Shown here piece after piece: positions 5,249 to 35,547 of a stretch of DNA of 45,496 nucleotides (position 1 is the stretch's first letter; every line of letters begins with the position of its first letter). The position numbers and the translations under genes are program-made. This DNA comes from a virus. The notes beneath the pieces were generated by a model. The model was not told the DNA's origin, searched no databases, and saw nothing but the letters and a program-made list of their open reading frames with translations. Location of the stretch: IMG/VR virus record IMGVR_UViG_3300031758_000140, positions 1 to 45,496 of that record. One strand, 5' to 3'.

Positions 5249-8200
5249 TTATAACATACAAATTTGAGTAACATCTGCAGGATCTACTTTTTTAGCACCA
5301 GCTATATACAATCCTTTGAAGAATGGAAGTATACTGTCTATACTAGTTTCCTTGCCTACAACTTTTATATTAAGGTATTCTCCCCCTACAATATGCTTCT
5401 TTTTATTAGCTGTCTTGTTGAGAGACAAATATACAGCTTTATCTGAGCCTTGCTTGTAGTTTGGGCTTAGTACATACACACCTGACTCTCCTTTTTGAGT
5501 TCGGAATACCATAACTGCTGGAGGGTATCCACCATATTTTTCAACATTGGTGTAGTGCTCTTTAGCAAGTTTAGGTACGGTATCCCCAAGAGTCTGCCTA
5601 TCTGTAAGATTAGATCCACCTGGACGTATCTCACCAAATATTCTAAAGAACTTAACTAAGTCTTCAGCAGTAAAGTAGTTACCTGTTTGCATGTTCATAG
5701 ATTGCTTATGCAGATACTCTGCAACACTTATATCAGGTAATCCTGCCATCTCTCTTTTAAGAGGTTGCAGCCAGAACTGTGGCGGGATCATAGTAGCATA
5801 GTTAAATGCTGACTTTCTAAACCCGTTAGAGATTAAGGTATGCATACATAGGTCAAAGCCTATCTTCTTAATTTCTTCTATAGATCCTTTATACTTTTGT
5901 ATTGCTTGTTCTGTAGCACCTTTACCAGGTTTTGTTAAATAAGCCTCTGGTCTGTACATCAGGTTGTACAAGTCTTCTTGAATTCTAGACTTCTCCTCAG
6001 GTGCATACTGTTGTGTAGCATCAAAGTTAAAAGTTGTAAATCCTTTTACAGACTTGTTGTTATCGTCCTCACTAAGCTTAGATAAGAACTCATTTCCAGA
6101 AAGGTTTGCATATTTCTGTAAAGCATTTTGAACTCTTGCCCATAGGGTAAACTTTCCTTTACCTGGTTTATATAAGTCTTCACTGTAAGGTACATTAAAG
6201 TACACACTAAGTGGGGAGTCTTGTCTTGTCAGAACTGTGAACATCATAGCAGCATTGATATCTCTATGCTGTTCTACACTCAACGAGTCTCTACCTGTAG
6301 CTGTTTTAATAGCTTCCTTAAATTTAATAGCTGATTCTGATGTAGTCATTGGGAATACAGTTCCAGCTACTCCTAGCATTTCCACTAACAGGTTATAATA
6401 TCCTCTTTCAAATCCGTAAATAGAATCTGCATCATAGAATTGTGTAAGGACATTCTGATCTTTAGCTCTACCATAGAATGCTATTGGTGAATTATCTATT
6501 AGTCCTCCTTTTGGATTATCAAACTTCTGCTTTCTTTCTACATATGATTGAACTGCTTCAATCCTATTAATACCAGACATAGTATCTGGGGTAAGAAGTT
6601 TAAATGCTTCCTTAAGTTGCTTACCTGCAGTGTACATCTTCATAAAGTTTTGAAGAGCTCTAGCAGATGGAACAGTCAGAGTCATGATAGCCTCTCTGGA
6701 CATTGTATATGTACTAGGGATCTTTTTATAATTATCAGGTAATCCTACACTGCCCAGTGTTATATTGTATTTCTCAGCAACCTTTTTATATGCTACGTTA
6801 ACTTTAGATAGATCATCATTATGCTCATTAGCCATGATGTCTACAAAGTCTCTGATAATAGGTTGGTTCAAGAAGTGGTGTAGTAATTCTGTATCTCCAT
6901 GATAATGCACCCATAATAACTCTACTGGGAAAGTGATTGGGTTGTCATTTACTATGTAGTGATACGGAGCTTTTGTTCCATCCACGGCTGCAGTTACATA
7001 TCGGCTACTAATTCTATCTGTAGTAAGACCTGAGTCATACTTATATCCTGCATCTTTTGGGATTGCTTTAAGGAATTTAGTATTCATCAACTCCCCTTGA
7101 ATCTTAATAGCAAACTCTGACATCAAGTTAAAGTTATCTGATGCAGCTGCTACGTTTCTACCAGCCATTGCATTAGCCCAAAGTCCTCTCATCTTGTTAC
7201 CTAGCAAGTTTCTTACAGCACTTTGGGTTTCATACATACCCCCTGTAAACACTTTATTAGGTTTCAAAGACTCGTTTAAACTTACAATGCTAGTTCTAAT
7301 ATCTTTTAAAACTTCATCATCAAGTGGTCGAAGTGTTTCAAGATAATGCTCAGGAGATGAGAATACAGCTTCTATTGTATCTAGAATAACATTCATCAGC
7401 TCCTTATCACTAACCTTAGATACGTCTTTAGTTCTCCAAAGCTCATTATAGTTAGGTTTTACCTTTTCACCATTCTCAATCTCTGGGAACATGAGAAACA
7501 TTTTATCAACGTCAAAGTCAGATCCCATAAGCTTAACTAACTGTGGTGGTACTACAACTGCCTTCTCATATCCAGCAGGAAGAATAGCTTTAATCTTAAA
7601 GATAATAGTAGATGCCTTATCCTGGTTGGGGATACGATAGCCAATGATTCTTCTTAGTTCTTCTGGGATATTGGCAGCATCTAAGTCTACACCTGGTTCG
7701 ATTCCAAACTTTCTAAGTACATCTTCTCTAACCATGATCTCAGCATGGGCTAGTCTTGTACCTCTAGTTTTGTTAGAAGCATGATTTACAATCTCCAGGA
7801 AGTTAAGAGAGTTGTTTGTCTCGAATCCACCAAGAGCTGCTGTCTGTACAGCCTCATACCCTGATACATATTGCTTGAATACATTGTTGTTGTATATGCT
7901 AAGCAATGCTGTTTGGAAAGCTGTTCCATATACAGGGAAGTCAAGTGGGATAGAGAACCTTGTAATACCAGTAACAGGATCAATAGTTATATCAAGAGCC
8001 TTAATAAAGTTATCACTTAACTCTCTTTCTATAGCTTGACTCTCAATTAAGGATCTGATATTCTTAATCAACTTCTTCTTAGCCTCTTTAAACTCCTGAG
8101 CATTTTGAATAGCATCTATATTTACTTTGCTATTAGTAGATGTTTCAAGCTTAAGTTTCTCAACAACCTTTCTAAATTGACCTAGTCCTATTTGATTGTT

Positions 8201-11200
8201 TACAGACTCAAGGTCTCTCTTAATTCTTTCTTCAATAGCAGCATGATAAAGTGCTGTCATATCTTCCCCGAATACAGCTGTCTCTTCTTTAAGACCTGCA
8301 TTGTAGAAGTATGTTGCAGATGATACTACATTAGCAATAGCATTCTTTTTTACCTGTCTACCAAAGATTGTTTCAGACTTTTCTTTTGCAGGAGGAATGC
8401 TTTGAGGGAAACGTAAAGCAGATGTACTATTTCTATTAGACTTCACATTAGCAAAGAATCCACCAGCTCTTGGTGACCAGTTTTTAATGTCAAGTATATT
8501 TAACTTAACTCCCTTCTTAGCAGATACAGCACTAGCTGTGTGTATCTTTTTCATTCCTGCATAAGGATTGTTTGCTTCGAGTGGGTTAGCCTCCATCCTC
8601 ATCCTCATGTCGTCCATGATTGGGAAGGCTTTAGTGTATGATTTAAGTATTGGGAAGTAAGCTGTCTTGGTGATATCTGAAGCTACAGTGTTACCTATAC
8701 GTTTAACTTCATTACCAAATGGCTTATATGGTCTGAACGGAATCTCTTGTCCAACCTTTGCTCCTTTAGGCAGTTTAACTCCTGCTGGATATAAAAATCT
8801 TCCTTCAGGATCTTGCTTATAATTTTTATAAGCTTGCTCATGATACTCCTTCCACTCTCCTTGACCTTCCATTATTTCTCTCAACCAGTCTATAGAGATA
8901 AGAGTCAAACCATCATGTTCTTCAAACTCACCTGCCATATATTGTGCAGTGAATGCAGCTTCCTCTGGAGTATATCCAGATTGTATAAGTTGTGTAGCAG
9001 TTCTAACTGCCCACTCATCCATCTTCTGTGAGATGACAGAAGTAATCTGTCCCATAGGATCATCAAATACTAGCTCTTCATATTGAGAGATAGCCCCATA
9101 CCCCATAGGGTCGTCAAGCCATGTTAGTTTTTGTGATTCTTTTTTACCAAGTGTACCTTTCTCTGCAAGCTTAGTTCCTGGAGTACCTAGTGTTCTTTGA
9201 CGTTTGGTAAAGTCTTCTATGCTTTTAAACATAGCTCTATTACCCCTAGTTATTTTAATAATCTCATTTCTACCTACGTCCTCATGGATAAGGAAGTCTA
9301 CAAGAAGTGGGGTAGCTAGTTGAACAAACTTAGAGTTATCAGATGAGTTTACAATCTTAGTACCCTCTGCCCATTTTGATAACTGTTTAGTACTTAAGTC
9401 TTTTTTTCTACCAGACTCTTCAATAAGTTTTGCAATTTGAATTGCAGCATCTTGATAGAATAAAGTAAGATCTGCGGTCATCCTAGTCAACTCATTTGCA
9501 AATTCTTTGAGTTGTGGGTTTAAAGGAATTCCCTTGTTAACAGCATTTATATAATCTTCAGCAAGATCAGACATAAACATTCCACCACCCTTCTCACTAA
9601 TGAATACATCAGTTACTATTCTTTCACCATCTTTGGTTATTCCATCAAACTGCATGAACTCACTGCTTAATCCAGTAGTCGGTCCAGTATGGTAGTCTGG
9701 TATCTTAGTAGCATTAGGGTCCCCAATTGTCTTCTTAGCTTCTTTTATTCTTAGAAGATCTTGAAGTATTCCTTTTATGAATGCTTGCTGATAAGTCATA
9801 TTGAGACTATCTTTTCCATGACCAGATAATCTAGGCATAATCATAAACAACATGATTGCCCTGTCCCCCATAGAAGGAACAGTTACTCCATAGGTGGTAG
9901 CGTCTTCATTGTTTACAAAAGCTTGTATTCTTGAAAGAATAGAATCAACACTATTAAAGTCTTCATACTCTAATGCATCTTCTGCATAGTCTCTAATAGC
10001 TGATAAAGGATCTACACTAAATTCCTCTGCAAACTTTTGATTGTTTTGCAGGTGATTGAATAAGTGACTAGGCTCCATGCCAGGAGGGAAGATGAAAGGA
10101 TCCTTCTTATATAACTCCAAGGCTCTTTCTTTATTCTTAGCTAAGTCTGCTTTAATTATTGTAGGTAACTCAGCAATAGGAGTAGCCATATTCAATGGGA
10201 ATGTAGCTGTGTTTACTGCAGTCACAAAGCTTTCAGCTGATCTGCTTGTAAAGAATGGGGCTAGGCTGGCAAGGAACTTCATACCCTTCTTAGCAAAGTC
10301 TGCATCATAATAAGGTATAGGTCTCTCATTCATCTCTCCTATACTTAGTCCACTACGAGAGAAAGTAGTAGTAGGGGAAAGAGATTTAAATGTTTCTACG
10401 AGTCTAGCTCTTTCAAAGATTAGATTAAAGGCAGCTTTTCCTTTAACTTCTATTTTCTTTCTCTTGTCTGTCTCAGATTTAATTACTGTAAATCCTTTAT
10501 CTACTAAGCTTTGTAAATTCTGGATAGTATCAAACTCTTGAATGTTACTTCCTAAACTCATGCCTAGATGCCATACTAGAGAACCCAATGCTTGTACTGG
10601 TGCACTTATTTGTCCTTCAGGACCACTCATGAATGCACTGTCAGCAACAGTATCATCTTTAAATTCTCTAGTAGAAGCTTCGTAGCTCTTTTGGAAATAC
10701 TTTGATATGAGCTTAAACTTCTCTGACTTTATTTTAAACGTAGCAGATGACTCATCATCCCCAAATGTTTTAATGTATACAGCACGTTTAGTTATGTCTG
10801 TATCTTCTTCCTGTCCACCTACTTCTACAATCTGATTTCTCCACTGCTTTGCTACTCTATTTTCAGTAGTAGAGCTATTGGCATTGATTATCTTACTATC
10901 CTCTCCAAATAGAATCAACTTAAATTGAGAGTTAGTATTAGCAAATGCATTATATAGAGTAGCCCTATCGTCTTCAGACATACTTGCAACACGTGCATTA
11001 ATACTCTTAATATCTGTTCTGTGTTTAGACTGTTCTATAAGCTTAGCTTCCATCTCCTCAAAAGTTAGAGTGTCGGCCCATAGTTCTGATAGTTGTTTGT
11101 ATATAAAAGGCAGAGTGTGGTACTCATTCATATTAGTGAATACCTCATTCTTTTTGTTCTTATATACTATCTTGTTTCCCTCTTTTACTGGATTTACAAT

Positions 11201-12670
11201 AGGGATACGTCTAAGAAGATTTTTTGCCCTTTGTGAGAGTTTACTCATCGGTGAGTCAGCAAAGTGGCTTCTTCCTTTAATATCTTTCTCGTCTGCACCT
11301 GCATCTTGTGCCTCAATCTTGTCATTCTCTGTATCTCCCTCTTTGTTATCAACTGTAATTATATCTTTAGTTACAGAGTATTGGTTAGCAGCTAGTCCAT
11401 TAAGTACCATTTGTCTCCATGATGGGACAAGTGTGTTACCAGTCTCTGGATCAGTTTTACCATACCAGTTTGTAATTACATTTATAACTTGCTTACGTCT
11501 AATTATCTGTCTCTGAGCTATTGCTTTATCTCTATCAGAGGAGTCAGGATTAATTACTTTCTTCTTTATAACTATTCCATTCTTCTTTGCATACTCTACT
11601 AGGTCTGCAAGGTATCCATCTACCTCAGGTTTAAATGCTTCAGCTGCTTTTGAATCTTGTCTTTTAAGAGTATTGTACTTTGTCTTGGCATTTGTGTGTC
11701 TTGTTTCTAATGCCAACATCTTGTACATCTTAGGGATGTCTGTCTTATCTATAGTAGTTTTCCCTTTGATATCATAAATCTGATATAGGAGTCCATTTAC
11801 AATTGAACCATTAGTTTTATTCTTTTTGCTCCCTAAGATTTTATTTACATCAGGTGTATCCCAACTTTCAATTTCATCAATAGCCATGTTAGTAAGTCCT
11901 TGTACCATCTTCTCTACAGTAGCCGATGGTATACCTTCTACAAGCATGCTAGGATTATAAGAGCTCTGCATAGCCTGTGGGTTTCTGAATACTCCTCTAC
12001 CTAGGAAAGTGTCATTGGCCTTGGTAGTTTCCATAAGTGAGTACACATCTCTGAGACTTAGCTTATCGGATGCTATTCCTTTTATCCAGCTGAACAAATC
12101 TCTGAACCACTTGGCTAATCTATCCAGCATGCCTTTGCTACTCTCTTCCTCAGTCTTCATGTGTTCCATGAATCCATCAGCCATCTTCTCCTCGAGTACA
12201 AGTTTTCTAGCTTCTTCTTCACCAATTACAATATCATATAGTCCCTGTACTTCCTGTTGAATCTTCTGAATCTCAGCAGTAGTAGGGGCTCCAAATTGTT
12301 TGGTTGCATCTTTATATAGATTGTCTCTTTGTTCTTCAGACAACATTGTTCTGAATAGCAAGTGGTAAGCTTCGTGATACTCAGTTCCAGATTGGGCAGA
12401 TGTCCACAGATTAATTGCTCCATTCTCAATATATCCATGCTGAGTCTTATTGCCTATCTCTTTAGCAAAGTCGTAGAATACTACTTCTTTACCAGGAAAC
12501 ATTTTAGACAAGTAAGCTACAGCTCTATCTCTCTTATCAGATTCTTTTGGGAAGTAGTACTTAGATGGTACCTCACCCTTGTACTTATTCCATAGGTAAT
12601 AAGCTTTGGTTGGTTGAGATTCTTCTAATGCCTTCCATTCAGGAAGAGATTTATTTGGGCAAAATGTCAT
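5249..12670 (-). CDS. Virion-packaged DNA-dependent RNA polymerase with N-terminal zincin-like domain
   Basis: Protein of 2473 residues. Seen: GSDFDVDKMFLMFPE, with D1718, D1720 and D1722 forming the DxDxD motif that binds the catalytic Mg2+ in double-psi beta-barrel RNA polymerases. Just upstream is GYRIPNQDKAST (from 1677), and downstream a conserved-looking NLLGNKMRGLWANAMAG segment near 1815-1835. The family is the single-chain virion RNA polymerase of crAss-like phages (Cellulophaga phage phi14:2 gp66, about 2180 residues, with DFDID), which is injected and transcribes early genes. The N-terminus has GTEYHEAYHLLFRTML: HEAYH at 99-103 with Glu at 160/161 (LEEKMADGF), a zincin-like signature that would account for part of the extra length. 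The gene follows the nuclease-bearing giant gene by a single base (TAA, one base, ATG). Polymerase identity is strong; activity of the zincin part is unproven. Confidence 0.9.
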   Translation of the reverse strand: MTFCPNKSLPEWKALEESQPTKAYYLWNKYKGEVPSKYYFPKESDKRDRAVAYLSKMFPGKEVVFYDFAKEIGNKTQHGYIENGAINLWTSAQSGTEYHEAYHLLFRTMLSEEQRDNLYKDATKQFGAPTTAEIQKIQQEVQGLYDIVIGEEEARKLVLEEKMADGFMEHMKTEEESSKGMLDRLAKWFRDLFSWIKGIASDKLSLRDVYSLMETTKANDTFLGRGVFRNPQAMQSSYNPSMLVEGIPSATVEKMVQGLTNMAIDEIESWDTPDVNKILGSKKNKTNGSIVNGLLYQIYDIKGKTTIDKTDIPKMYKMLALETRHTNAKTKYNTLKRQDSKAAEAFKPEVDGYLADLVEYAKKNGIVIKKKVINPDSSDRDKAIAQRQIIRRKQVINVITNWYGKTDPETGNTLVPSWRQMVLNGLAANQYSVTKDIITVDNKEGDTENDKIEAQDAGADEKDIKGRSHFADSPMSKLSQRAKNLLRRIPIVNPVKEGNKIVYKNKKNEVFTNMNEYHTLPFIYKQLSELWADTLTFEEMEAKLIEQSKHRTDIKSINARVASMSEDDRATLYNAFANTNSQFKLILFGEDSKIINANSSTTENRVAKQWRNQIVEVGGQEEDTDITKRAVYIKTFGDDESSATFKIKSEKFKLISKYFQKSYEASTREFKDDTVADSAFMSGPEGQISAPVQALGSLVWHLGMSLGSNIQEFDTIQNLQSLVDKGFTVIKSETDKRKKIEVKGKAAFNLIFERARLVETFKSLSPTTTFSRSGLSIGEMNERPIPYYDADFAKKGMKFLASLAPFFTSRSAESFVTAVNTATFPLNMATPIAELPTIIKADLAKNKERALELYKKDPFIFPPGMEPSHLFNHLQNNQKFAEEFSVDPLSAIRDYAEDALEYEDFNSVDSILSRIQAFVNNEDATTYGVTVPSMGDRAIMLFMIMPRLSGHGKDSLNMTYQQAFIKGILQDLLRIKEAKKTIGDPNATKIPDYHTGPTTGLSSEFMQFDGITKDGERIVTDVFISEKGGGMFMSDLAEDYINAVNKGIPLNPQLKEFANELTRMTADLTLFYQDAAIQIAKLIEESGRKKDLSTKQLSKWAEGTKIVNSSDNSKFVQLATPLLVDFLIHEDVGRNEIIKITRGNRAMFKSIEDFTKRQRTLGTPGTKLAEKGTLGKKESQKLTWLDDPMGYGAISQYEELVFDDPMGQITSVISQKMDEWAVRTATQLIQSGYTPEEAAFTAQYMAGEFEEHDGLTLISIDWLREIMEGQGEWKEYHEQAYKNYKQDPEGRFLYPAGVKLPKGAKVGQEIPFRPYKPFGNEVKRIGNTVASDITKTAYFPILKSYTKAFPIMDDMRMRMEANPLEANNPYAGMKKIHTASAVSAKKGVKLNILDIKNWSPRAGGFFANVKSNRNSTSALRFPQSIPPAKEKSETIFGRQVKKNAIANVVSSATYFYNAGLKEETAVFGEDMTALYHAAIEERIKRDLESVNNQIGLGQFRKVVEKLKLETSTNSKVNIDAIQNAQEFKEAKKKLIKNIRSLIESQAIERELSDNFIKALDITIDPVTGITRFSIPLDFPVYGTAFQTALLSIYNNNVFKQYVSGYEAVQTAALGGFETNNSLNFLEIVNHASNKTRGTRLAHAEIMVREDVLRKFGIEPGVDLDAANIPEELRRIIGYRIPNQDKASTIIFKIKAILPAGYEKAVVVPPQLVKLMGSDFDVDKMFLMFPEIENGEKVKPNYNELWRTKDVSKVSDKELMNVILDTIEAVFSSPEHYLETLRPLDDEVLKDIRTSIVSLNESLKPNKVFTGGMYETQSAVRNLLGNKMRGLWANAMAGRNVAAASDNFNLMSEFAIKIQGELMNTKFLKAIPKDAGYKYDSGLTTDRISSRYVTAAVDGTKAPYHYIVNDNPITFPVELLWVHYHGDTELLHHFLNQPIIRDFVDIMANEHNDDLSKVNVAYKKVAEKYNITLGSVGLPDNYKKIPSTYTMSREAIMTLTVPSARALQNFMKMYTAGKQLKEAFKLLTPDTMSGINRIEAVQSYVERKQKFDNPKGGLIDNSPIAFYGRAKDQNVLTQFYDADSIYGFERGYYNLLVEMLGVAGTVFPMTTSESAIKFKEAIKTATGRDSLSVEQHRDINAAMMFTVLTRQDSPLSVYFNVPYSEDLYKPGKGKFTLWARVQNALQKYANLSGNEFLSKLSEDDNNKSVKGFTTFNFDATQQYAPEEKSRIQEDLYNLMYRPEAYLTKPGKGATEQAIQKYKGSIEEIKKIGFDLCMHTLISNGFRKSAFNYATMIPPQFWLQPLKREMAGLPDISVAEYLHKQSMNMQTGNYFTAEDLVKFFRIFGEIRPGGSNLTDRQTLGDTVPKLAKEHYTNVEKYGGYPPAVMVFRTQKGESGVYVLSPNYKQGSDKAVYLSLNKTANKKKHIVGGEYLNIKVVGKETSIDSILPFFKGLYIAGAKKVDPADVTQICML

Positions 12671-12671
12671 C

Positions 12672-15600
12672 TTAACAGTTTTCTTTTATTACCTTATCCA
12701 TTAATTCTTGAGCTTCCTCTAGAGTTATAGTCTTTCCTTGGCCTTTGTATAGGTTTACAATTCCTTCAGCATCTATAGCATCATTTGCTATAGCCATTTT
12801 CAATCCTGCATCTAAGGTTTCTCCTTGCACAAATCCACTGTCTGTTGACTTCTTAATAGGTTCAGCTTTTGTTTCCTTACCTTTAGGAGTTTCATTTTTA
12901 GTAGTGGCTTTAGTACTAGCCTTTTTCTTACCTGCATTGTTGATGCCTGGGTCGGAGCTGGTCGTTGCTTTTTTCTGCTCGAAAGATACATCTCCCTTTA
13001 CCAACTTTTTAATGTCGTAGTTCAATGTAAACTTCTTTTCAGCCATGCTAGATACTCTATCTATGTGTCCAGTCTTATCGTATCTAACTGGTATATATAA
13101 AACACTAGCTCCTGTTATTTCAACTTTTACGTTCTTATCCATGCCTATTCCTCTTAAGGCATAAGCATACATGCTCAACTGAGTTCCGTGCTGATCTCTC
13201 TTGCTTTTAGAAACCTTTTTGGTTTGTGGGTCAGTGTATCCTTTTTCATAATTTGCAAGTCCAGCTTCCGAACCAGTTTTTACATCGTAAAGATAATACT
13301 TACCAGTCTTTTTATCTCTAGCTAAAATGTCAAACTTGCCAGCAAAATCAGTATAGCTCTCACTGTAGACAATCATCTCAGTAGAGATCACTTTCTGTTT
13401 TCTAGAATCTATCAATCGTCTGATATTTGATATCTGACTCTTAAGATCTAGGAATGCTACACGAGACATCTTATCCCCACGGGTATAAGTATTATCCCCC
13501 ATAAGCACTTTCTCTACAATATCATGTACAGTATTACCAGCTCTACTAGAAGATACCTTCTGTTCTTCTGTCCCATTAAATGGCTCAGAGGAGAAGCTAG
13601 TAATACGTTTAAACTTCTTAGGATTAGATGTTCCCTCAGGCTGTATCTTGTAGTGAGTCTCTTCTTTAGTAATAGGGTCTTCAAACATACCCTTATACTC
13701 TTTCTCTTTAATATCCAATAGTTTACCTACTAATGGATCTAAGAGATCTCTGTCCTCTTCTGGAATATCTGTCTCTTCTATATCCTCTACTATCTCATCT
13801 TCTTGTCCTAGCTTACCTTGAGACTTAAGCAAGTCTTCTAGATTTGTAGTGGAACCTTCAGTCTCAGCTTCTTCCTCCTCTGTCTGACCAATAGCTTCTG
13901 CTACTTCATTGTTATCTTCTATCTCTTGATCAAAGTCACTAATATCATTGTAGTCATCATCCTCATCTGAATATTCATCACTCTCTTCCTTCTCTTGAGA
14001 AGTAGTACTAGCTTTAGCAGATTTATTTGAAATGTCTTCTTCAGCAGAGTTAACAGGTTTACCATTTACAAGCATAGGTCCATAGGTAATACCAATGTCA
14101 AAGTAAGGACTTCCTTCTTCATTGAGATACATATCTGAACCTATGATTCCAGTCCAAGAGTTACTATCAGAATCCATATCAGGAATAGCTCTAGGATCTT
14201 TTAAGTACTCTAAATAGTTAGCATATTTTTTTCTTTCTCCATTCTCCTCATTCATAAATGGAGATTCAAATGGTTCATTAGCTATAAGTCTCTTTATGCT
14301 TACTTGATACTTCTTATCCATTAAAGCACCTTCAAATGCTTTAATTACTTTGCCTGCATACGTATTCCATTGACCATCCTTAGTTTCATTTTTAACAAAG
14401 GTTATTCCACCCTTCTCTCCTTTCTCAGCTTTTACAAAGCCATAGTCAAATTGTTTACCTTTTAATGCAAGAGAAAGATTTGATGCTGATATACGAATAT
14501 AGCTCTCAGCTTCAGGTAGGTAGAAGGCATATGTATTCTCTCTAGTTTCTGAGTTCTCTTGCCCTACTGGCAACCAGAACATCATGTCAGTTCTCTCTAG
14601 ACCAATTGCTAATTCTGCAATTAAATTGAAACCTACAAGATCTTGTAAAATATCTGACTGACCATTCATAAGAGCAAGCTTGGCAGAATTAACTCCAGCC
14701 TTAGTCATATTCTTAGTAGTAAGTCTCAAGTGTCTGAATCCTCCTAGAGGACTCTTAACAATCATTGCAACTCTACCTAGATCTTCAGGGTATGCTTTTA
14801 TGTCTGGGAAGGTATCTCCTGGTTGGATATTGTCTCCCTGTAGACCTATCTCCCACTTACCAGCACCACTATCACTTTCAATCTTAGCAATAGCTATAGT
14901 AGGAGTACCCTGTGCAAATGGGTTGTAAAAGAATCTATCTCCATTCTTATCTACTGCATTTGCAATATTCTGAGAGTTAAATCTCTTACCTGCTATAGTA
15001 CTAGTTGTCCTCTTACCTTGTAGGTAATTATTGTATATCTCCTCACGACTTATGTTAGATTCTGGTTTACCTGGAGCATATCCCTCAAGCATACCAACTC
15101 TTCTTATTCTACCATCAGGAGTTCTTATCTCAACAAAGATTGGAACTTTCTCCCAATGTTTATTAGCAGGTATGCTATCTTTTATACCTTGCCAGTATAC
15201 AGTATCTGGAATTACTTGGAATACTACCTCTGTTCCTATATTAGATTCAATATGAGAAGCTAGAAGTTTAGGACTTATTTTAATAAAGTTCCCACTAAGA
15301 TCTTTCTGTCTGGTTCCAGTATCAGTCTCAGGGTTGTAGTATTCTGTATTAGGGAGTGGAGTACCATCAGAGTCTACAATTATATGGTTGAAGTCATCTG
15401 TAGTTTTATGCTGTGTCTTTATAAGACGAGCATCTATTTCCCCACCATGCTCACTACCTGCTTCTACTTCTTCATCTATAGATTCTTTTACAGGTTCAAT
15501 CGTAAGACTATCTTCATCGATGATATCTTCAGTAGGTGCCTCCTCTTCAGTTTCGAAATCTACTTGAATAGTAACATCATCTACTTCGTCAATATCATCT

Positions 15601-18600
15601 ACCTCATCTGAGTAAAGGCTTTCTAGATCTGTTGGATCTACGTAGTCCTCATCTTCTTCATTGATGTCTAGTTCTTCTGACGCAGGTACTTCAACATCTC
15701 CCTCAGTCTCTGGTCTATTTCCTTGTTCCGTAGCAAATTCCTCAGTTCCTTCGGCATTTTGTAGGTTTTGGCCAGCTTCACTTGATTCTCTAGCTTCATT
15801 TTGTGCTGTTATTTGTTCTTGTAGTTTAGCAATTTGTGCATTAACTAGCTCTAATCTAGTTGATAATTCTTTAAGCTTGTTCTCCTCTTTATCTATTAGC
15901 CTTTCTACCTCTTCAGGTGAAGGAGCATTCATCACAAGTCTAGTAGGGTCTTGAAGTTTTTTATAAGCTTCAATCTGTCTCTCTGATTTAATTATACTAT
16001 ACTTTAAATCATCAGCTTCTTTTTCAAGTCTCCCAATTTCATTAGCAATCTCTACAGCATCTTGTGGATCTATATCAGTAGCCATAGCAGAAGGATCTCC
16101 TTCACTTGGCATACCTATCATTTCTCTACGTGTCCTATCGAGCTCTTCTCTTTTCTTGTTATAGGTTTCAATTAATGATACTATATCCTTATAGATTTCA
16201 TCATTTTGAACTGCAGTATAAGGTTGATTATTTCTTTTGTATGCTTCTTCTAAAAGTTGTTTAGCTTTAAATAAACCATCAAGGAATTTCTGTACCTCTT
16301 TTATTGCATACTCATATACTGCAGGAGTACCTGTAATTTCATCTATAGCTATCTTTTGATTAAGTCTTGGCTCTTCTACCTTTAATACTTTTAGTATATC
16401 TTTTACCTTAATCTCAGTTTGCTCTAAGGTCATATTTACAGTATCAGCTGTACCCTCAGAGATATAACCCATCATTATAACCTCAGCAAGTTCATTTACT
16501 AGAATAGGGTCTTTCTCTGGTGTAAATATAACTGTCTGCCCGTCTTTATTTATCAGGGTTACTGACATAACTGGAGCTTGACCTTGGTCATCAAGAGCTG
16601 CCATGTTAAGTTTAATAGCATCCATAATGCTTATGCTATTATTCCTGTAGGGAACTCCATTAATTATGATATTCCTGTTGTCACTGGTAGTAACTCTAAT
16701 AGCATTTACATACTGTTTAGCATTTGGAGTGTTACCGTCAGAAGTTTTAAATCCAGCAACGGCAGCAGCTGCATCTTGCTCAGCTTTCTTTTCTCTATCA
16801 GTCTTTGGGTTATTAGCTCTAGCTTCTTTCTGAGCTTTAGTTTCCCCAGTTCTATCTGCTACAACTCTAAGGATGGCTATAGCTTTTTGAGGATCTTGAT
16901 CTTTAAGTTCCTCAATGCCATCTAACATATCCTTAAGTACTGCATCGGGAAGGTCATTGTAATCTTCTACATACCTATCCTCTATCTCTTGTAGTTCTTT
17001 ATATCTCTTAAGAAGTCTCTCCCTAAGTTCAGGACTAAGAGTATCGTTATTGATAAGGCTATCTAAATCTGCAGTAGATCTAGCTTCATCTATAACTACA
17101 TTAGCTTCTTTATTATCATTAATAATTTTAGCTTGTGCTTTAGCTCCCTGTTTAGCTAGTATAGCCAAATCTCTTTTCTCTGGGGATAGCATAAGCTCAT
17201 CGAATGCAGCTATAGACTCCTCTCTCATTTGCAATCCAGTAAATAAGTTCTGCAACTCATTTATGAATTTCATTTTATCGATAGGATTAAGATTGTCAGC
17301 ATACTTCATTGATCTCTCAAGTTTGCTAAGAATCTTATTCTCCTCATCCTCATCCTTCTTCTTTCTCTGTCCTTCTGGAGATTGCTCTTCAGCTTTGGCT
17401 TTAGCCTTTGCCTCTTCTGAAGCAGTGTCACTAAGTGTTGTACTAACTACAGATTTAGGGAATTGTATTTCTCCTGTCTCTGAAACAGTAATCTTGTTCT
17501 TCTTTACAAGAGCAAGAATATCATCTTTATTTATAGTTGCAAAAGAGTCTGGACCTTCTGGGGAAAGTCTTCTGAGCTCATCAATGCTAGCATTAATCTC
17601 TTCGTCTCTAGTATCAATGCTAACCATATGCTGCATTAAAATAGCTTTCAACCTTTGGTTGTAAAGTCTCTGAGTAGCATCTGCTTGCTTTTGCTCTTTG
17701 CCTTGGAGCATACCAGGTAGGCCAGTCTTAATAGGATTAACCCTTTGAATAATATCATCTAAGTCTCTATTAAGTTTAGATGCTTTTTTATACTCCTCTT
17801 TTAGATCCTGTATAGCTTGTACATGACTTTTACCACCACTCTGTTCTGCAAATGTGGCCTTAAGTTTACCATCCTCTGTCTTAGTAGTGTCGTAACCAGT
17901 ACGTTTCATGAACTCTTCCTCGGACATTTTTTCGAGATCATCGAATTCCTCAAGTCCAAGTTCCTCTGCATCCAGGGCTTGAAGTTTTGCAGCTCTGGTA
18001 GCAATTAATTGTTTTCTAAGTTCGTTAGCAAGTTTGTAGTTACCTACTGCATTAGCTGCTGTTATAGCACTAATAGTTCTTAAGCTTTCATCATTCTGTT
18101 CAGCATTTGCTAGGATATCTGTAAATGCTGCACTGTTTTTAATATTTAAAAGTCTCTCTGTATTAGCAACAAGGTTTTTCCTTTTAGCAGCTTCAGCACC
18201 GAATGTAGTGCTAGCTGTGCCCATTACTCCACCAGTAAGAGCTCCAAGAAGCATGCTCTCCAAACCATCTGCACTTCCAAAGGTCTCACTTAATCCTTTA
18301 GTAAGTGCTTCAGCAAAGTCTCCACTTCCTGTATCAAATTTATTTTTAAAGTACTCACTAGCTCCTACACCAATTGCATACTGTGTTCCTTCTTGGAAAG
18401 CTTCATTAAGAGAGTTCTTATAAATAGGACTTGCAAACTTGTCTACTTTAGCAAGGGTTTTACCAAAAGCAGAGTTAGGAGTTTTAAGTACATACTTGCC
18501 TCCCTTCTCTATAATGTCCTCAGTCATCTTTTCTCCAATAGGTAGACCTGCTAATTTCTTAGACCCCCCTATCATACTTCCAAAAGTGAATAGATTGGTA

Positions 18601-19634
18601 GGCATAAGAACAGCCATATTTAATCCAAATGTGGTATTCTCCACAGCTCTTGCACTCTCTAAGATTGCCTGCTTTTCTTCAGCAGTCATATCCTGTTGAG
18701 CAGACTTACCTGGATTGGCTTCTTCCCAAGCAGCAAAACTTTCTCTAATAAACTCTTTAGATTTTTCTCTAGCTTCTACAGAAGACTCAGCAAGAGACAT
18801 CATAGCTCCTACCTCTAGGTGCTTAGCAGCATTCAAAGCTCTAGCAGTTTTAGCAGCTCCAGCTACATCGTCTGATAGTTTAGCCCCAGTTTTAATCATT
18901 TTGGAGGCTTCGTAAATCTTCTTAAGCTTTTCTCCAGTGCTTGCCACCTTACCAACAGCAGCTGCTTCACCAAGAGTAGCCATCCCTTTACCTACTAGTC
19001 CTACCCCTCTGCCAATTACACCTGTACCTCCAGTTAACCATACAGTTGCTAGGGAACCTAATGAGTACCCAAGTCCATTAGCAAACTTATCAGTCCAGAA
19101 GTTAGCAGTACCCAAAGCTTCAAATGCACTTCTATCTGGGTCTTGTTCTTTTTGAGAGTAGTAGTGTGGAAAGTTTTCAGCCATCCACTCATTCATCTCA
19201 TCTACCGATCTACCTACAGCATTATCTGCATATGTACCTCCTGTAGCCATAGAGGCCAGACCTGAGAATATTCCAATAGTGTTTTCTGCAATAGCCCCAC
19301 TCATAGTGGTTCCCATTTTAAGAACTCCTCTTCCTAGCTTTTCTCCAACACCTTGGTTGTTTGCACGGATCTCATTCCAGTCTTCACCAAATGGATTATA
19401 ACCTACATCATATTTAGCATAATTTGCAAGAGCATCACTATATCTATTAGTAACATTTATTGTACTAGAGGCTTGCTCCAATCCAGACATAAACTTGTCT
19501 GGGGCAGTTTTATATTCTAAAGGCTTACCAGCATTAATCTGTGCCTGCTTGATATAAGGATTTTCAGAATCTACTGCTTCTTTAGGAAGTCCTGAGTTTT
19601 CAGCAATCTGTGCTAAGTATGGGTTTTCCTCCAT
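12672..19634 (-). CDS. Giant ejected-type protein with hydrophobic N-terminal half and C-terminal PD-(D/E)XK nuclease
   Basis: Protein of 2320 residues. The N-terminal part has several hydrophobic or Gly-rich segments (about 112-135, 183-228, 333-354, 459-476), suggesting membrane contact during DNA entry. Then come long charged helices and two very acidic tracts (about 1315-1405 and 1880-1965). Near the C-terminus is a RecB/Cas4-type nuclease: NTVHDIVEKVL (H2037), GKFDIL (D2102), YDVKTG (D2117 and K2119) and QLSMYAYAL (Q2152), matching the H, D, DxK and QxxxY motifs in order. A Lys/Ala/Thr-rich linker leads to a short helical end. It lies immediately upstream of the polymerase gene (one-base gap). 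Likely packaged in the particle and delivered with DNA. The nuclease fold is well supported by motif order. Target (host DNA, rival phage DNA, own genome ends) is unknown. Confidence 0.78.
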   Translation of the reverse strand: MEENPYLAQIAENSGLPKEAVDSENPYIKQAQINAGKPLEYKTAPDKFMSGLEQASSTINVTNRYSDALANYAKYDVGYNPFGEDWNEIRANNQGVGEKLGRGVLKMGTTMSGAIAENTIGIFSGLASMATGGTYADNAVGRSVDEMNEWMAENFPHYYSQKEQDPDRSAFEALGTANFWTDKFANGLGYSLGSLATVWLTGGTGVIGRGVGLVGKGMATLGEAAAVGKVASTGEKLKKIYEASKMIKTGAKLSDDVAGAAKTARALNAAKHLEVGAMMSLAESSVEAREKSKEFIRESFAAWEEANPGKSAQQDMTAEEKQAILESARAVENTTFGLNMAVLMPTNLFTFGSMIGGSKKLAGLPIGEKMTEDIIEKGGKYVLKTPNSAFGKTLAKVDKFASPIYKNSLNEAFQEGTQYAIGVGASEYFKNKFDTGSGDFAEALTKGLSETFGSADGLESMLLGALTGGVMGTASTTFGAEAAKRKNLVANTERLLNIKNSAAFTDILANAEQNDESLRTISAITAANAVGNYKLANELRKQLIATRAAKLQALDAEELGLEEFDDLEKMSEEEFMKRTGYDTTKTEDGKLKATFAEQSGGKSHVQAIQDLKEEYKKASKLNRDLDDIIQRVNPIKTGLPGMLQGKEQKQADATQRLYNQRLKAILMQHMVSIDTRDEEINASIDELRRLSPEGPDSFATINKDDILALVKKNKITVSETGEIQFPKSVVSTTLSDTASEEAKAKAKAEEQSPEGQRKKKDEDEENKILSKLERSMKYADNLNPIDKMKFINELQNLFTGLQMREESIAAFDELMLSPEKRDLAILAKQGAKAQAKIINDNKEANVVIDEARSTADLDSLINNDTLSPELRERLLKRYKELQEIEDRYVEDYNDLPDAVLKDMLDGIEELKDQDPQKAIAILRVVADRTGETKAQKEARANNPKTDREKKAEQDAAAAVAGFKTSDGNTPNAKQYVNAIRVTTSDNRNIIINGVPYRNNSISIMDAIKLNMAALDDQGQAPVMSVTLINKDGQTVIFTPEKDPILVNELAEVIMMGYISEGTADTVNMTLEQTEIKVKDILKVLKVEEPRLNQKIAIDEITGTPAVYEYAIKEVQKFLDGLFKAKQLLEEAYKRNNQPYTAVQNDEIYKDIVSLIETYNKKREELDRTRREMIGMPSEGDPSAMATDIDPQDAVEIANEIGRLEKEADDLKYSIIKSERQIEAYKKLQDPTRLVMNAPSPEEVERLIDKEENKLKELSTRLELVNAQIAKLQEQITAQNEARESSEAGQNLQNAEGTEEFATEQGNRPETEGDVEVPASEELDINEEDEDYVDPTDLESLYSDEVDDIDEVDDVTIQVDFETEEEAPTEDIIDEDSLTIEPVKESIDEEVEAGSEHGGEIDARLIKTQHKTTDDFNHIIVDSDGTPLPNTEYYNPETDTGTRQKDLSGNFIKISPKLLASHIESNIGTEVVFQVIPDTVYWQGIKDSIPANKHWEKVPIFVEIRTPDGRIRRVGMLEGYAPGKPESNISREEIYNNYLQGKRTTSTIAGKRFNSQNIANAVDKNGDRFFYNPFAQGTPTIAIAKIESDSGAGKWEIGLQGDNIQPGDTFPDIKAYPEDLGRVAMIVKSPLGGFRHLRLTTKNMTKAGVNSAKLALMNGQSDILQDLVGFNLIAELAIGLERTDMMFWLPVGQENSETRENTYAFYLPEAESYIRISASNLSLALKGKQFDYGFVKAEKGEKGGITFVKNETKDGQWNTYAGKVIKAFEGALMDKKYQVSIKRLIANEPFESPFMNEENGERKKYANYLEYLKDPRAIPDMDSDSNSWTGIIGSDMYLNEEGSPYFDIGITYGPMLVNGKPVNSAEEDISNKSAKASTTSQEKEESDEYSDEDDDYNDISDFDQEIEDNNEVAEAIGQTEEEEAETEGSTTNLEDLLKSQGKLGQEDEIVEDIEETDIPEEDRDLLDPLVGKLLDIKEKEYKGMFEDPITKEETHYKIQPEGTSNPKKFKRITSFSSEPFNGTEEQKVSSSRAGNTVHDIVEKVLMGDNTYTRGDKMSRVAFLDLKSQISNIRRLIDSRKQKVISTEMIVYSESYTDFAGKFDILARDKKTGKYYLYDVKTGSEAGLANYEKGYTDPQTKKVSKSKRDQHGTQLSMYAYALRGIGMDKNVKVEITGASVLYIPVRYDKTGHIDRVSSMAEKKFTLNYDIKKLVKGDVSFEQKKATTSSDPGINNAGKKKASTKATTKNETPKGKETKAEPIKKSTDSGFVQGETLDAGLKMAIANDAIDAEGIVNLYKGQGKTITLEEAQELMDKVIKENC

Positions 19635-19654: not shown

Positions 19655-21976
19655 TTAAAAGCCTGTTACAAGTCCACTACCAATAAGTCCTTTAATAGCA
19701 GGCTCATCTAAGTTATGTCTAGTAGCTGCACCTTTGTCCTTATCAGTTTTTAGATAAGGAGTGCCATCTGGATACGTGATCGAAATATACGGAGAAGCAT
19801 CACCTCTACTATAGATATTAATTAGAACCCTCTCATTATTAATTTTAATAGTCTCTAGAGTTCTAACTTTTCCAGGTTCCATTGATCTTTGTTGCATGAC
19901 TAGAGTACCAAATCTTACTTCAGGATTATTAATAGCTGCATTCAATCCTTCATTCTTAATTTGATTTCCATCGTATACAGCAGTCAGTACTGTTGCATCA
20001 TCCCCTTCACCTTTCATAAGGTTCAGTTTCCACGAGTTATTACCTGGATTCCATCCTGATTTTACAATCTTATATCCTGCTAGCTCTGGTGAATTTCCAT
20101 TAAGCTGTTTAACACTACCGTCTGGTAGCATAACTGTTATAATTTCTTCTGGGTTTAATGGTCTTCCTTTCTCTCCTTCGAAGAAACTATGAGCTGCTTT
20201 AGTAGTTGAAACATCTATACTCTTACCCATACCAGTCTCAATTAATCCCATGTTGTATGCAGTAGATTGTTTAATCTCTGCATATTTAGCATTAACTTTA
20301 GACTGTAACTTACCGTTAAATTTATTCAATACTTGTTCTGGAGTACTTGCATATCCATTATAATATAGCTCTCTTTGCTCAGGAGTCATATCACTTGTTG
20401 CATACAATGAACCTCCTGGTACTCTAGAGGATCCAGGTGCAGAATTTGAAGGCTTATAGTTTTCGGCCATATGTGCCTCAAAAGCACCTTGACCAAATTG
20501 CTTATCAAAAGCTGCCTGGAAATCCATATAATCTTGATCACCAGTGTTGTCAAATATCTTTTGTACCTCACTATAAATATCTCCAGAAGAGTAAGCTGGG
20601 AACATAGTTTTAACTACATCTGTTATTTTATTATCTACAGATTGCAAATCGGCCATGCTTACTGAAGAGTCAGCAGCTTCTTTCATCTGAGCCTGTACTC
20701 TAGACTTATTATTAATCAGAGTATTAAGAGTACTATTTAGACTAGCTTTAACTTCATCAGAGTAGGTATTTTGATTAGCAGCCAAGTCTTCAGTAATAGC
20801 TGCAATCTGTTGATCAGTTGTAGCAAGGTACTGCATCTTACTCTTATGGTCAACACCAGATATATCCATATCAGCTCTAACCATATCGTAGTTGTATAGT
20901 GGAACCATTGATGCAGCTCCACCTCCCCCACTACCACTTCCATCTCCTCCAGTAATTCCTGACTCTTCTTTATAAGTAAAGAGACCTGCTTTCTTCATTG
21001 CATATTCTTCTACTGGACGTAGTATCTCTGCTCTATAAGCTTCTCTCATTAACTCACTAGCAAGTGCTGGGTCTTTCATAGCAGCATCTATTTTAGCACT
21101 AGCATCTGTAAGAGCAGTTATAGCAGTTTGGTACTGAGCTTTCTTTGTTTCATCTGTCTCTAGTCCAACTTGAGTTTTTAACTCAGCTAGTTTATTTTCA
21201 TACTGCTGCTTTTGATTTTCAAGAATTACAGGAGTCTGACCACTTTTATCAGCTTCATGAGTTTTCATATCTGCCATCTGAGTAAGATAAGCAGCTACAT
21301 CTGGCTCTTGAATTACAGAACTGTATACTTGCATTACATCTGCTTCTGGTATTTCTTCTGTATAAGCTCCTACTTTACGTTTGTAGGTTCCATTCTCATC
21401 TGTAACTATACTCCCTTCTTGATATCCTCTTTTTTTCAGTTCTAGAATTTCAAGTCTCTTAGCCATTAGATCCATTAACTTAGGATCTTTAACAATAGTA
21501 GGAGCTGTAAACATTGTACCTGCTTTTACTCTCCCAGTAGTAGGGTCAGTTTCAAAGCCTTTATACCCTTTAGTAATGTAAGATGCTGCTTTGGCATATT
21601 GCTCAGAGTTAATATCCCCCTTCTCATATTGTTTATCAATATTTGCAAGAGCTCCTTGATATCTTTCGTAGTTTTCTTTAATAGGGGAATTACTAGTAGA
21701 AAATTCTTTAGATAATCTATGAATAGCAAATCCTAGATTTTCATAATTTCCTTTACCTGCCAAGCCCTCTAGACTCTCAGTAATTTGTTGTTGAAGTTCA
21801 TTCTTTCTTTTAACGTCATTCTCAAAAGGAAGTGCAGCCTTCATCTGATCAACAGCTAAAGCCAACTCATCGTTAGCTTTAAAATTTTCTATAAACCTAT
21901 TACGTAAGGTCTCAGATATTTTTACTGATTGAGGATCTACGTAAGTACTTACATATTGATTCCATTTATACGGCAT
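19655..21976 (-). CDS. crAss-like cargo/ejection protein candidate
   Basis: Protein of 773 residues. No catalytic motif recognised. The first 330 residues are rich in charged helical segments (KRKNELQQQITESLEGL; a long helix around the KLAELKTQVGLETDETKKAQ stretch). A Gly/Ser linker at about 338-352 (GGDGSGSGGGG) separates them from a second helical region and a beta-rich C-terminal part (about 600-773, with SVKQLNGNSPELAGYKIV and KTLETIKINNERVLINIYS-like alternation). Its position between the wall-hydrolase cargo protein and the giant proteins, with gaps of 5 and 20 bp, fits the cargo genes of crAss-like virions, which fill the capsid interior or tail and are expelled with the genome. Function is inferred from place and size only. 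Confidence 0.55.
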   Translation of the reverse strand: MPYKWNQYVSTYVDPQSVKISETLRNRFIENFKANDELALAVDQMKAALPFENDVKRKNELQQQITESLEGLAGKGNYENLGFAIHRLSKEFSTSNSPIKENYERYQGALANIDKQYEKGDINSEQYAKAASYITKGYKGFETDPTTGRVKAGTMFTAPTIVKDPKLMDLMAKRLEILELKKRGYQEGSIVTDENGTYKRKVGAYTEEIPEADVMQVYSSVIQEPDVAAYLTQMADMKTHEADKSGQTPVILENQKQQYENKLAELKTQVGLETDETKKAQYQTAITALTDASAKIDAAMKDPALASELMREAYRAEILRPVEEYAMKKAGLFTYKEESGITGGDGSGSGGGGAASMVPLYNYDMVRADMDISGVDHKSKMQYLATTDQQIAAITEDLAANQNTYSDEVKASLNSTLNTLINNKSRVQAQMKEAADSSVSMADLQSVDNKITDVVKTMFPAYSSGDIYSEVQKIFDNTGDQDYMDFQAAFDKQFGQGAFEAHMAENYKPSNSAPGSSRVPGGSLYATSDMTPEQRELYYNGYASTPEQVLNKFNGKLQSKVNAKYAEIKQSTAYNMGLIETGMGKSIDVSTTKAAHSFFEGEKGRPLNPEEIITVMLPDGSVKQLNGNSPELAGYKIVKSGWNPGNNSWKLNLMKGEGDDATVLTAVYDGNQIKNEGLNAAINNPEVRFGTLVMQQRSMEPGKVRTLETIKINNERVLINIYSRGDASPYISITYPDGTPYLKTDKDKGAATRHNLDEPAIKGLIGSGLVTGF

Positions 21977-21981
21977 ACCTA

Positions 21982-24900
21982 TTAGATATTAAATGTTTTT
22001 TTACCTTTTGACAATTCACCTAAACGAGAGGTATATCTTCTAGTTCCCCCAGTTTTAGCTTTACCTATATACTGATTATACTGATCAGCTGCATAATCTC
22101 TTAACTCTTTATCAGTCTTTCCGTAAAATTCAGATTGAGGATCTTTAGCTTGCTTTTTTAAATCCTCATAGTATTGGAATCTTTGGTATGAACCAGCATC
22201 ATCCATAGCATTAGCTAATCTTTCCTGAGCTTTGTATGATCTATCATCTTTATAGATTCCAGCTATACGAGTAGCAGCTTCGTCTAGAGCTCCAAAAAAC
22301 TCCTCTCTTTTATACTGTTTTTCATTTAGCTCTAGTTGCTTATTAAACATCTTAGCTTTTTGCAAACTTTCAGAAGCTCTTTGTCTATTCTCAGCAGTAG
22401 CAGCAGAAGCTTCCATAGCTTGTTGAGCATTAAACTCTGATGCTCTTTGACCAAGTTCAGCTTCTTTGTTTTGAATAGCAGTATTAATCTTACTTTCCTC
22501 TTCTTGAATCTGCAACATATTTTGTTGAAGTCTTGAAGAATTAGCTAGTTTGCCAACTATAGCTGCAGGGCCTGCATTAGTTCCTTCAATATACTTATTA
22601 ATAGCATTAGAGTTTGCTATTGCAGCAGCTCTTTCAGCACCCAATGAAACTCTTCCAAGTGTAGCCCCTCTAACTACAGAACCAGGAGCTACTGACTCTC
22701 CTTTAAATTCAGCACCACTTGTATCTATTCCAGCAGTCGTTTTATAAGGACTTGCCAACAAAGCTCCTACAGGTAATAGTTGTCCTAATCCAGCAAGTAA
22801 AGCTCCATTTATATTTGAGTCTCTAGGAGGTGTTACTTTCTTCTCAGTCTTCTTTAATCCAGTGTCTTTTTTAAGATCAGGCTTTGCTATTTTTGTAGGC
22901 AATAAACCAGGTTCTTTACTTTTAATTGGTTGAAGAGTTTCTCTATATGGGAAAGGTCCTTCTGTTCCTGGATCTACTGCAGCAGTACCTTCAGCTGCAG
23001 TAACATCAAATCCAGTTGGTGTAAATCCAGCAGCTTTTTGAGCAGTAGCATCTGGCATTCCTATATTAAACTGCTTGAACATTTGATTATCTATAGAAGA
23101 AGGTTTATTCAATCCAATAGTTCTTCCTTCTATATTGATGTAATTAGGATCAGTATAAAATGGAGGTTGTCTTACTAATCCAGTTTCTGTTGGAACAACT
23201 CTAAATGGAGTTGTTGGTTTTGCAGGACCTATGTTTCCAGTGAATCTTCCTACTGCCGTACTTGGTGTAGGTGCTTCTAACATTAATGGACCTCTTCCTG
23301 CCATGTTAGGTGCAGAGGCTGTTGGTCTTGCTGCTGATGCATTTGGTGCAGATGCTGTTCCTGCAAATCCTTCCCAAGCACCTGCTGCTCCTCCTGCTAA
23401 TCCACTAGCTCCACTAGCAAGAGCTCTACCTACACCCAATAATGCATAGTCAATTGGACCTAATACAGATTGTGCTGCCCCAGAAGGAAGAGGTTGTCTT
23501 CCCTGATTTAATGCAGCATATTGATCAGCACTCATAGTTTGGTTACTAGCCTGAGGTTTTGCTGACACTGCTGCAGGCTTACCATCATCTGGTCTTACTC
23601 CAGGTATTCCTAATTTACCAGCTTGGTAATAAGTCTGCAATCTAGATTGAGATGTATCAGCATGCTCATTCCATTTATTACTTTCCCAAAGTTGCTTTTC
23701 ATTTGTAGCAAGTTCTACTGCTCTCTGAGCTACTTGGGGATCTTTTGGTCTTAATACTACAAAGTATCCACTATCTGCCAGTACTCCGTCTTTTAGAGAC
23801 TTAGCTCTTTCAGCTACTGTATCAGGGGTATCTGGATTAACATCATCAGGATCTACATTACCTCCGATAGCATATACTTTATCTCCTTCTAGTTTAGTTA
23901 CTATATCACCATGTGAGAAACCAGAGTAAGAAGACTGTCCAAACTTCTGCTTATTCCCAGATCTATTATTTACAATGATATCCCCAGGTTGGAGTTTTGT
24001 TGTAGCAGGATCTAATTCTTGCCAATCATCTCTATTTTTTAAACCAGTTGCATATCCAGTATGTGTGGGGCTCTTAGGGAAGTTAGGGTCAGCATTGCTA
24101 TACACATAAGAAATAAATGCTGAGCTCCAAGGAGTACTGTCAATATAGTTTAAAGATTTTGGAGGTAATTGTTTTTTACCACCTTTTGCATACTTAGCTA
24201 TAGTATCAGGACTTCTATCCTTTTCTCCTTCTTTATTAGCAACAGCCTCTTGCATCTCAGCAAGTTTCTGAATATCTGCTTGTTTGCCTCCAGACTTTAG
24301 AATTTCTTTATGTCTTTGGGCAAATGACTTACCACCAAGTTTAAGATAAGCTGAGAAGAAGTAGTCATTCATTTTACCCTTACCTCCTGACTTAGCCATC
24401 ATTACCTGATCCATAGTCTCTCCACCTTCTACCTCCGTATCAGGAAAAGGTCTAATTCCCGATACACCATCTATCTTTTTCTCAGAGTGTTTGTTTCCTA
24501 CAAACTCTACTGCATCAGAACCTTCTATAGGGACAACTTTTCCCCCTGGAACTCTAACTCCTCCTGTCTCACCATAGAAACTAGGGGTAGTCATCATGCT
24601 AGGGTTATTTGATGTACTATACCCATACCCAGATTGAGCCCCAGCAAGTCTTGACTTAACGAATGCAGCATTGTAAGCTCCTGCAATCTTAGCATTTTCA
24701 GCTGCTATACGTGCTTCCTGTGCTTTTATTTCAGCAAGTCTTACGTTTTCTGCTTGTTGATATTCATCAGCAATTTTTTTAGCTTCCTTGTTTTCTTTTT
24801 TTGCTTTAATTAATCCTATTCCTCCCCCAACTAACCCCCCAATTGCTCCACCTATTACTGTTCCTCCTGGTCCTAGGAAACTTCCTATTGCTGCACCAGT

Positions 24901-35238: not shown

Positions 35239-35547
35239 TTAGTTACTATTACTATTTTCTATCTCTTTTTTTACTTTTACTAAGTCTGCACACTTTTCAT
35301 ATTCCTCCGTACTTGCAAAGTAGTTAATCATTAGATCAGCTACTTTCAAGAATGATTCTCTTTGTCTTGGATTAAAGGGGAATATTACTACAAGTTTCTC
35401 TTCAGTTAACTCTGCTAGAGTTCTTTTGTTAGTAATAAGCTTATATCCATTATTATAGCAAGAGTCTATAGATGCAACCTTCTCTAGGAATTCATCCATA
35501 GATCTTTCAAAATCATCATCGTCAGTATCGTTATTGTAGTTAATCAT
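35239..35547 (-). CDS. Small acidic hypothetical protein
   Basis: Protein of 102 residues. Acidic N-terminus (NDTDDDDFERSMDEFLEKV), then a helical C-terminal half with FLKVADLMINYFASTEEYEKCADL, the EDYEKCAEL-type motif that recurs in small phage proteins of unknown function. ATG 35547 overlaps the metallophosphoesterase TGA stop (ATGA), indicating coupled translation. No signal peptide or membrane segment. Function not recognised; it may be an accessory or chaperone for the adjacent phosphoesterase or ring protein. Confidence 0.5.
   Translation of the reverse strand: MINYNNDTDDDDFERSMDEFLEKVASIDSCYNNGYKLITNKRTLAELTEEKLVVIFPFNPRQRESFLKVADLMINYFASTEEYEKCADLVKVKKEIENSNSN

Follow-up and report, generated by a model that had tools for sequence, protein, structure and literature searches.

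A PD-(D/E)XK nuclease domain in the gp47-type cargo protein of a crAss-like phage and its possible role at phage entry

Gene neighbourhood of the giant cargo protein

The window, the whole stretch of DNA analysed, is a 45,496-base virus record (IMGVR_UViG_3300031758_000140, positions 1 to 45,496) whose genes match crAss-like phages. The major capsid protein matches crassviruses, the ring proteins CrAss_Ring_1 and CrAss_Ring_2 were found, and a 1821-residue protein at the position of the phiCrAss001 muzzle gene matches the virion structural family phrog_15100. The features considered here are as follows.

753..5237 (-): 1494-residue protein, C-terminal half related to gp49 (blastp 2.5e-30)
5249..12670 (-): 2473-residue protein, zincin-like domain and virion RNA polymerase (DFDVD, blastp)
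7475..8314 (-): RNA polymerase region with DFDVD at residue 1718 of the 2473-residue protein
12080..12457 (-): zincin-like domain, HEAYH at residue 99 of the 2473-residue protein
12672..19634 (-): 2320-residue protein, counterpart of phiCrAss001 gp47 (ORF, blastp to gp47, gene order)
12987..13634 (-): PD-(D/E)XK nuclease domain, residues about 2001-2216 of the 2320-residue protein (Pfam, PHROGs, AlphaFold2 model, Foldseek, VIA-align)
17769..19466 (-): conserved N-terminal region of gp47-type proteins, residues about 57-622 (iterated profile match)
19655..21976 (-): 773-residue protein at the cargo protein 2 (gp46) position (gene order only)
21982..25722 (-): 1246-residue protein at the cargo protein 1 (gp45) position (gene order, DUF2272)

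The 2320-residue protein was identified as the counterpart of phiCrAss001 gp47, a virion cargo protein annotated 'putative RNA-polymerase subunit', because gene order and sequence agree. The order in the window (muzzle position, gp45 position, gp46 position, gp47-like gene) is similar in phiCrAss001, and blastp aligns both the N-termini (96-476 with 98-519 of gp47) and the nuclease domains (2000-2233 with 1684-1915). With its homologous N-terminal region and gene position, the protein is assigned by homology to the crassvirus gp47-type cargo proteins; the N-terminal region was also matched in phi17:2, csAssE-Sib and phi14:2 gp67. The initial annotation had called the protein membrane-active, a description that finds little footing, as only one 19-residue stretch (residue 1662, 1.31) reaches a Kyte-Doolittle mean of 1.3. 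The protein at the gp46 position had no blastp match among the compared phiCrAss001 and phi17:2 proteins; that at the gp45 position carries a DUF2272 domain (PF10030, E 3.3e-10) and matches gp45 only weakly in blastp (0.36).

A virion polymerase does adjoin the gene, as had been proposed: the 2473-residue neighbour contains DFDVD and matches gp50 in blastp (5.6e-20). It lies on the same strand (-) as the gp47 counterpart, whereas in phiCrAss001 the RNAP genes are on the other strand from gp47. The N-terminus of the neighbour matches the C-terminus of gp47 (2.9e-7). The zincin-like domain is near the end of gp47 in phiCrAss001 and at the start of the next (RNAP) gene in the window, and its homology to the gp47 C-terminal end implies that domain order was conserved while the boundary between the genes shifted. 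A single-sequence fold of the zincin-like domain was discarded as unusable (pLDDT 37.4). The domain could process the giant cargo proteins. The 1494-residue protein, related to the virion RNAP-associated gp49 of phiCrAss001, likewise has an HExxH motif (HEFSH, residue 225), and its residues 400-466 match Pfam PhageMetallopep below the threshold (1.3e-3).

Fold and conserved residues of the nuclease domain

The initial annotation had placed a PD-(D/E)XK nuclease at the C-terminus of the 2320-residue protein, in agreement with Pfam, PHROGs, the structure model and the fold matches. Its location holds, although the proposed span (13170-13560) was too narrow; the domain extends over about 12987-13634, with about 100 residues of the protein C-terminal to it, and is the only enzyme domain of the protein recognised in Pfam and PHROGs scans. 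A Pfam scan of the full-length protein missed it, returning only DUF1601 (E 0.29), and a full-length PHROGs search returned phrog_466 (exonuclease, 1.1e-5). When residues 1975-2225 were searched alone, PF12705 (PDDEXK_1) was matched at 5e-6 (27.1 bits, cut-off 22), as were the exonuclease families phrog_298 (2.7e-11) and phrog_466 (2.6e-9). PDDEXK_1 matches 23 of the 25 aligned sequences at E <= 0.01. Against PDB chains, a profile of these 25 domains gave weak matches to an Rhs protein (0.0044), Exonuclease V (0.027) and a UvrD/Rep-type helicase (0.03). A PDB sequence search with the full protein produced two matches to fluorescent proteins, dismissed as chance.

The AlphaFold2 model of the domain, built from ten sequences (pLDDT 77.8, pTM 0.76), shows an alpha/beta nuclease fold. 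Human MGME1 was the top Foldseek match in the PDB (E 6.9e-6, TM about 0.41), and VIA-align gave Z-scores of 11.2 for AdnAB chain A, 11.1 for MGME1, 10.5 for an AddAB chain, 9.4 for RecE, 9.2 for a Cas4 complex and 9.0 for Dna2. In predicted viral structures, a structural protein of a crAss-like phage was among the best matches, as were cr4_1 and cr116_1 proteins that already bear the name exonuclease or PD-(D/E)XK. The fold class is clear from the model; the closest subfamily is not, since the TM-scores are modest and the best 20 VIA-align rows have rmsd values of 3.5 to 5.6. MGME1, AdnAB, AddAB and RecE, which are cellular repair or mitochondrial enzymes, have the same fold class as the window domain but differ from it in sequence (10-19% identity over the same 20 rows). 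Cas4 proper has four cysteines for an Fe-S cluster, and there is no cysteine in residues 1961-2240. Residues 2001-2216 are, well beyond chance, a RecB/Cas4/MGME1-type PD-(D/E)XK nuclease domain.

The five residues to which catalysis had been ascribed (H2037, D2102, D2117, K2119 and Q2152) are present where the initial annotation placed them. Their conservation is listed below for 34 sequences, among them the window itself, its relative L005 at 93% identity and a number of near copies.

13524..13526 (-): motif I position, H2037; H in 8, D in 25, R in 1
13329..13331 (-): D2102; invariant (34/34), in part through the search patterns
13278..13286 (-): D2117-V-K2119; D and K invariant (34/34), in part through the search patterns
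13179..13181 (-): Q2152 of QxxxY; Q in 34/34, Y2156 in 33/34

Owing to the near copies, the sequences were also clustered at 80%, and the D, D, K and Q are kept in all 24 representatives. The IMG/VR relatives had been fetched with patterns holding the AG-x-x-D and D-x-K motifs, so that in these sequences D2102, D2117 and K2119 are invariant partly through selection; none of the patterns contained Q2152. The conservation in homologues that the initial annotation calls for stands for four of the five residues and fails for H2037. QxxxY and the motif I histidine are labels of RecB/MGME1-type nucleases, and the histidine was rejected as a defining feature, since most relatives have Asp at its position and one has Arg. 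One branch (97/94) of a nuclease tree of 23 rows separates six rows with H from 16 with D. The nuclease domain of phiCrAss001 gp47 (22-25% identity to the window domain) likewise has the D, DVK and Q, and differs in having D at motif I where the window has H. The variation at motif I (H, D, R) would fit a catalytically dead remnant with a structural or DNA-binding function; the D, D, K and Q kept in every representative, partly built in by the search patterns as they are, make such a remnant highly improbable. Judged by its residues the nuclease module is intact, and DNase activity is predicted.

Distribution and exchange of the domain

Yutin et al. (2021) reported a PDDEXK domain in large crAss-like phage proteins associated with transcription, so the window protein is not a one-off fusion, and the nuclease-on-cargo arrangement is already known in outline. 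Those proteins have the same kind of architecture, given in one sentence citing Figs 2 and 3; the difference is that the passages of its text compared here are without residue analysis, module exchange or a delivery proposal for the domain. Among the papers listed by literature searches, none announces that the residues of this domain are conserved or that it is exchanged or delivered, a result that falls short of establishing absence from print.

Arrangements were surveyed with profiles iterated on the loci of this analysis, which may drift, leaving out copies of the window and L005 (L004, L006, L007, L012, L013, L014, L034, L035 and L036). The N-terminal, nuclease, zincin-like and RNAP regions keep neighbouring places across loci while gene boundaries shift. 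The nuclease ends one gene and the zincin-RNAP regions lie in the next in the window, L005, L015, L016, L019 and L037-L044. The same two genes follow one another in L020 and L045 (which ends at the contig edge), with the N-terminal region undetected. All four regions are on one chain in L017 (4080 residues) and L018 (3876 residues), single polypeptides at 5534-17773 and 5270-16897 of their loci, and L022 (3384 residues) has zincin, RNAP and nuclease on one chain. Nuclease and polymerase on one polypeptide in three IMG/VR contigs is an addition of this work to the known outline. In phiCrAss001, cr128_1, cr85_1 and Dulem virus 41 the order is N-terminal region, nuclease and zincin; bajarodcaudo virus 1, DAC15, cr106_1 and 'frurule' have N-terminal region and nuclease without a zincin match, cr124_1 has nuclease and zincin (TAG read as Q), and in cr116_1 the nuclease alone was recognised. 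The nuclease gene is downstream of the RNAP gene in cr4_1, cr55_1, MT835645 and ProJPt-Bp1, and L021 and L023 have short nuclease ORFs only.

Of 14 records searched with Pfam PDDEXK_1, four were without a match, including the 87.7-kb contig G001, which encodes the last 359 residues of the window protein at 100% identity, and G005 and G006 were matched in small ORFs only. The profiles made here find the large-protein nuclease domain in all six of these records, so Pfam counts understate it. Four of the 14 records had PDDEXK_1 matches in ORFs of 264-367 residues, and two of these did not reach the family's cut-off.

With the 25-sequence profile, four of 12 records matched in ORFs of 2009-2343 residues and three only in frames of 334-358 residues, one of which may truly be longer because of a TAG inside it; there was no match in the remaining five, including phi14:2, phi17:2 and csAssE-Sib. 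The nuclease was thus undetected by profile in three proteins keeping the gp47-type N-terminus, an observation that we add here and for which it looks like an accessory module. The phi14:2 protein gp67 resembles the window protein in adjoining the virion RNAP gene, in its related N-terminus and in being, according to its record, a structural protein detected by mass spectrometry, but differs in having neither a nuclease-profile match nor HExxH. The rest of the phi14:2 genome gave no nuclease-profile match either, which makes this phage a natural comparison. Its g046 is a separate gene annotated as an exonuclease.

Trees were built on subsets of the 34 sequences (23 rows for the first nuclease tree, 17 for the N-terminal region, 15 for RNAP, and 20 for the nuclease in the AU test). 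The N-terminal and RNAP trees unite the window, L005, L037, L015 and L016 at 100/100; the nuclease tree instead puts L015/L016 with L017/L018. Forcing the five-row group on the nuclease data was 18.4 log units worse (AU p 0.0155), a group tested after the first nuclease tree was known and with long branches present. Identities in the four regions follow the same division:

Window versus L015: N-terminus 41.7%, zincin 47.9%, RNAP 47.6%, nuclease 28.2%
L015 versus L017: N-terminus 17.8%, zincin 29.8%, RNAP 20.6%, nuclease 49.1%
Window versus L037: N-terminus 56.3%, zincin 48.6%, RNAP 61.8%, nuclease 46.2%

By these values, descent looks vertical for the window and L037 throughout the four regions, and no exchange is indicated. 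In a sliding comparison L018 and L017 are 59-71% identical in windows spanning residues 1551-1800 and 12-40% identical in the other 100-residue windows, an island that could be due in part to the nuclease being more strongly conserved than its flanks. No sharp swap breakpoint appeared when the window was compared with L015 in the same sliding way, since conservation is poor in the middle and end of the protein, on either side of the domain; similarity in the nuclease (about 28-35%) does not fall below that of the protein middle (20-33%). The conflict of the nuclease tree with the flank trees, together with the L017/L018 identity island, suggests that the nuclease is a cassette exchanged between lineages, a further addition of this work.

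The conserved neighbourhood with zincin and RNAP, and the fusion to RNAP in three contigs, would be expected if the nuclease were an integral part of the RNAP complex that aids virion transcription or genome entry, for example by providing nicks or single-stranded stretches for early initiation. We regard this as unlikely, given that the module was apparently exchanged independently of RNAP and that phi14:2, whose virion RNAP is reported in print to be active, is without a nuclease-profile match. Its absence from phi14:2 gp67 and the apparent exchange suggest rather an accessory, effector-like enzyme.

Virion presence and a proposed entry-stage role

The initial annotation had also put the protein in the particle. 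This is established for the homologue, phiCrAss001 gp47, which was among the virion proteins by gel and MALDI (PMC6235969) and again by mass spectrometry (PMC10172136); for the window protein it follows by homology. The detection concerns gp47, the available text leaving unstated which parts were covered, and the nuclease part could be cleaved off. Cargo ejection ahead of the DNA is modelled in PMC10172136. Transcription of gp47 is late, its role being left open, and gp49 and gp50 belong to the middle stage (PMC8375218).

Late transcription and a gene adjoining structural genes would also suit a nuclease that trims DNA in the producing cell, in packaging or maturation, and is only incidentally packed. 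The presence of gp47 in virions and the RNAP fusion in three contigs speak against this, as does the description of the structural-block nuclease PDDEXK_a as a separate variety in the text of Yutin et al. (2021), and we find it improbable.

The domain is probably best explained as the intact DNase module of a gp47-type cargo protein, which would reach the cell together with the polymerase and act during entry; that the nuclease part gets there, its activity and its substrate are what we infer. The 2320-residue protein would be made late and packed with the virion RNA polymerase. It would then be threaded through the tail, before the DNA or along with it, and refolded in the cytoplasm, where the nuclease may act on DNA ends or single-stranded DNA in the first minutes of infection.

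Degradation of the host chromosome, which the initial annotation had offered as one outcome, draws no support from these results. A DNase fold, four intact residues and a homologue in virions would allow the nuclease to destroy the chromosome at the start of infection. MGME1, AddAB, AdnAB, RecE and Exo5 need DNA ends or single strands, however, and with several structural neighbours so restricted, an unbroken circular chromosome would be ill suited as the first target. The phiCrAss001 abstract, in which the phage replicates without disrupting host proliferation, also leans weakly against it. Massive host DNA destruction is very unlikely, and the least supported of the delivered options.

For a nuclease delivered as cargo, a tentative guess at the substrate is branched intermediates of entry or the ends of the incoming linear genome itself; phiCrAss001 has a predicted 576-bp direct terminal repeat, by which linear ends should be present at entry. 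Some other substrate is given the same weight, and host or competing phage or plasmid DNA is rated only slightly lower. It is possible, though we hold it with little confidence, that crassviruses inject an interchangeable nuclease cassette, a passenger of the virion RNAP cargo swapped among lineages, whose target in the new host, before phage gene expression, would be DNA: that of competing phages or plasmids, defence intermediates, or the entering ends of the phage itself.

The polyvalent proteins of Iyer et al. (2017) are comparable: they are large phage and plasmid proteins of several domains, often zincins among them, for which injection is inferred, and N4-like virion RNAPs belong to them. 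They differ in that the text consulted names ParB-like DNases and no PD-(D/E)XK domain; the word 'crass' is absent from it. Nuclease, zincin-like and RNAP regions lie on one chain in L017, L018 and L022, and a single enzyme domain was recognised in the window protein.

Crassviruses have been described as the most abundant human gut viruses (PMC10172136), and an intact, apparently swappable predicted DNase on a cargo protein presents an entry-stage function open to test in the culturable phages phiCrAss001 and DAC15.

A metallophosphoesterase-like gene (35544-36692, minus strand) is located close to the ring-protein genes, in the structural block of the window. Its product matches phrog_704 (DNA repair exonuclease, 8.8e-56), with Pfam Metallophos_2 below the cut-off, and g075 in the structural block of phi14:2 is annotated as a similar enzyme.
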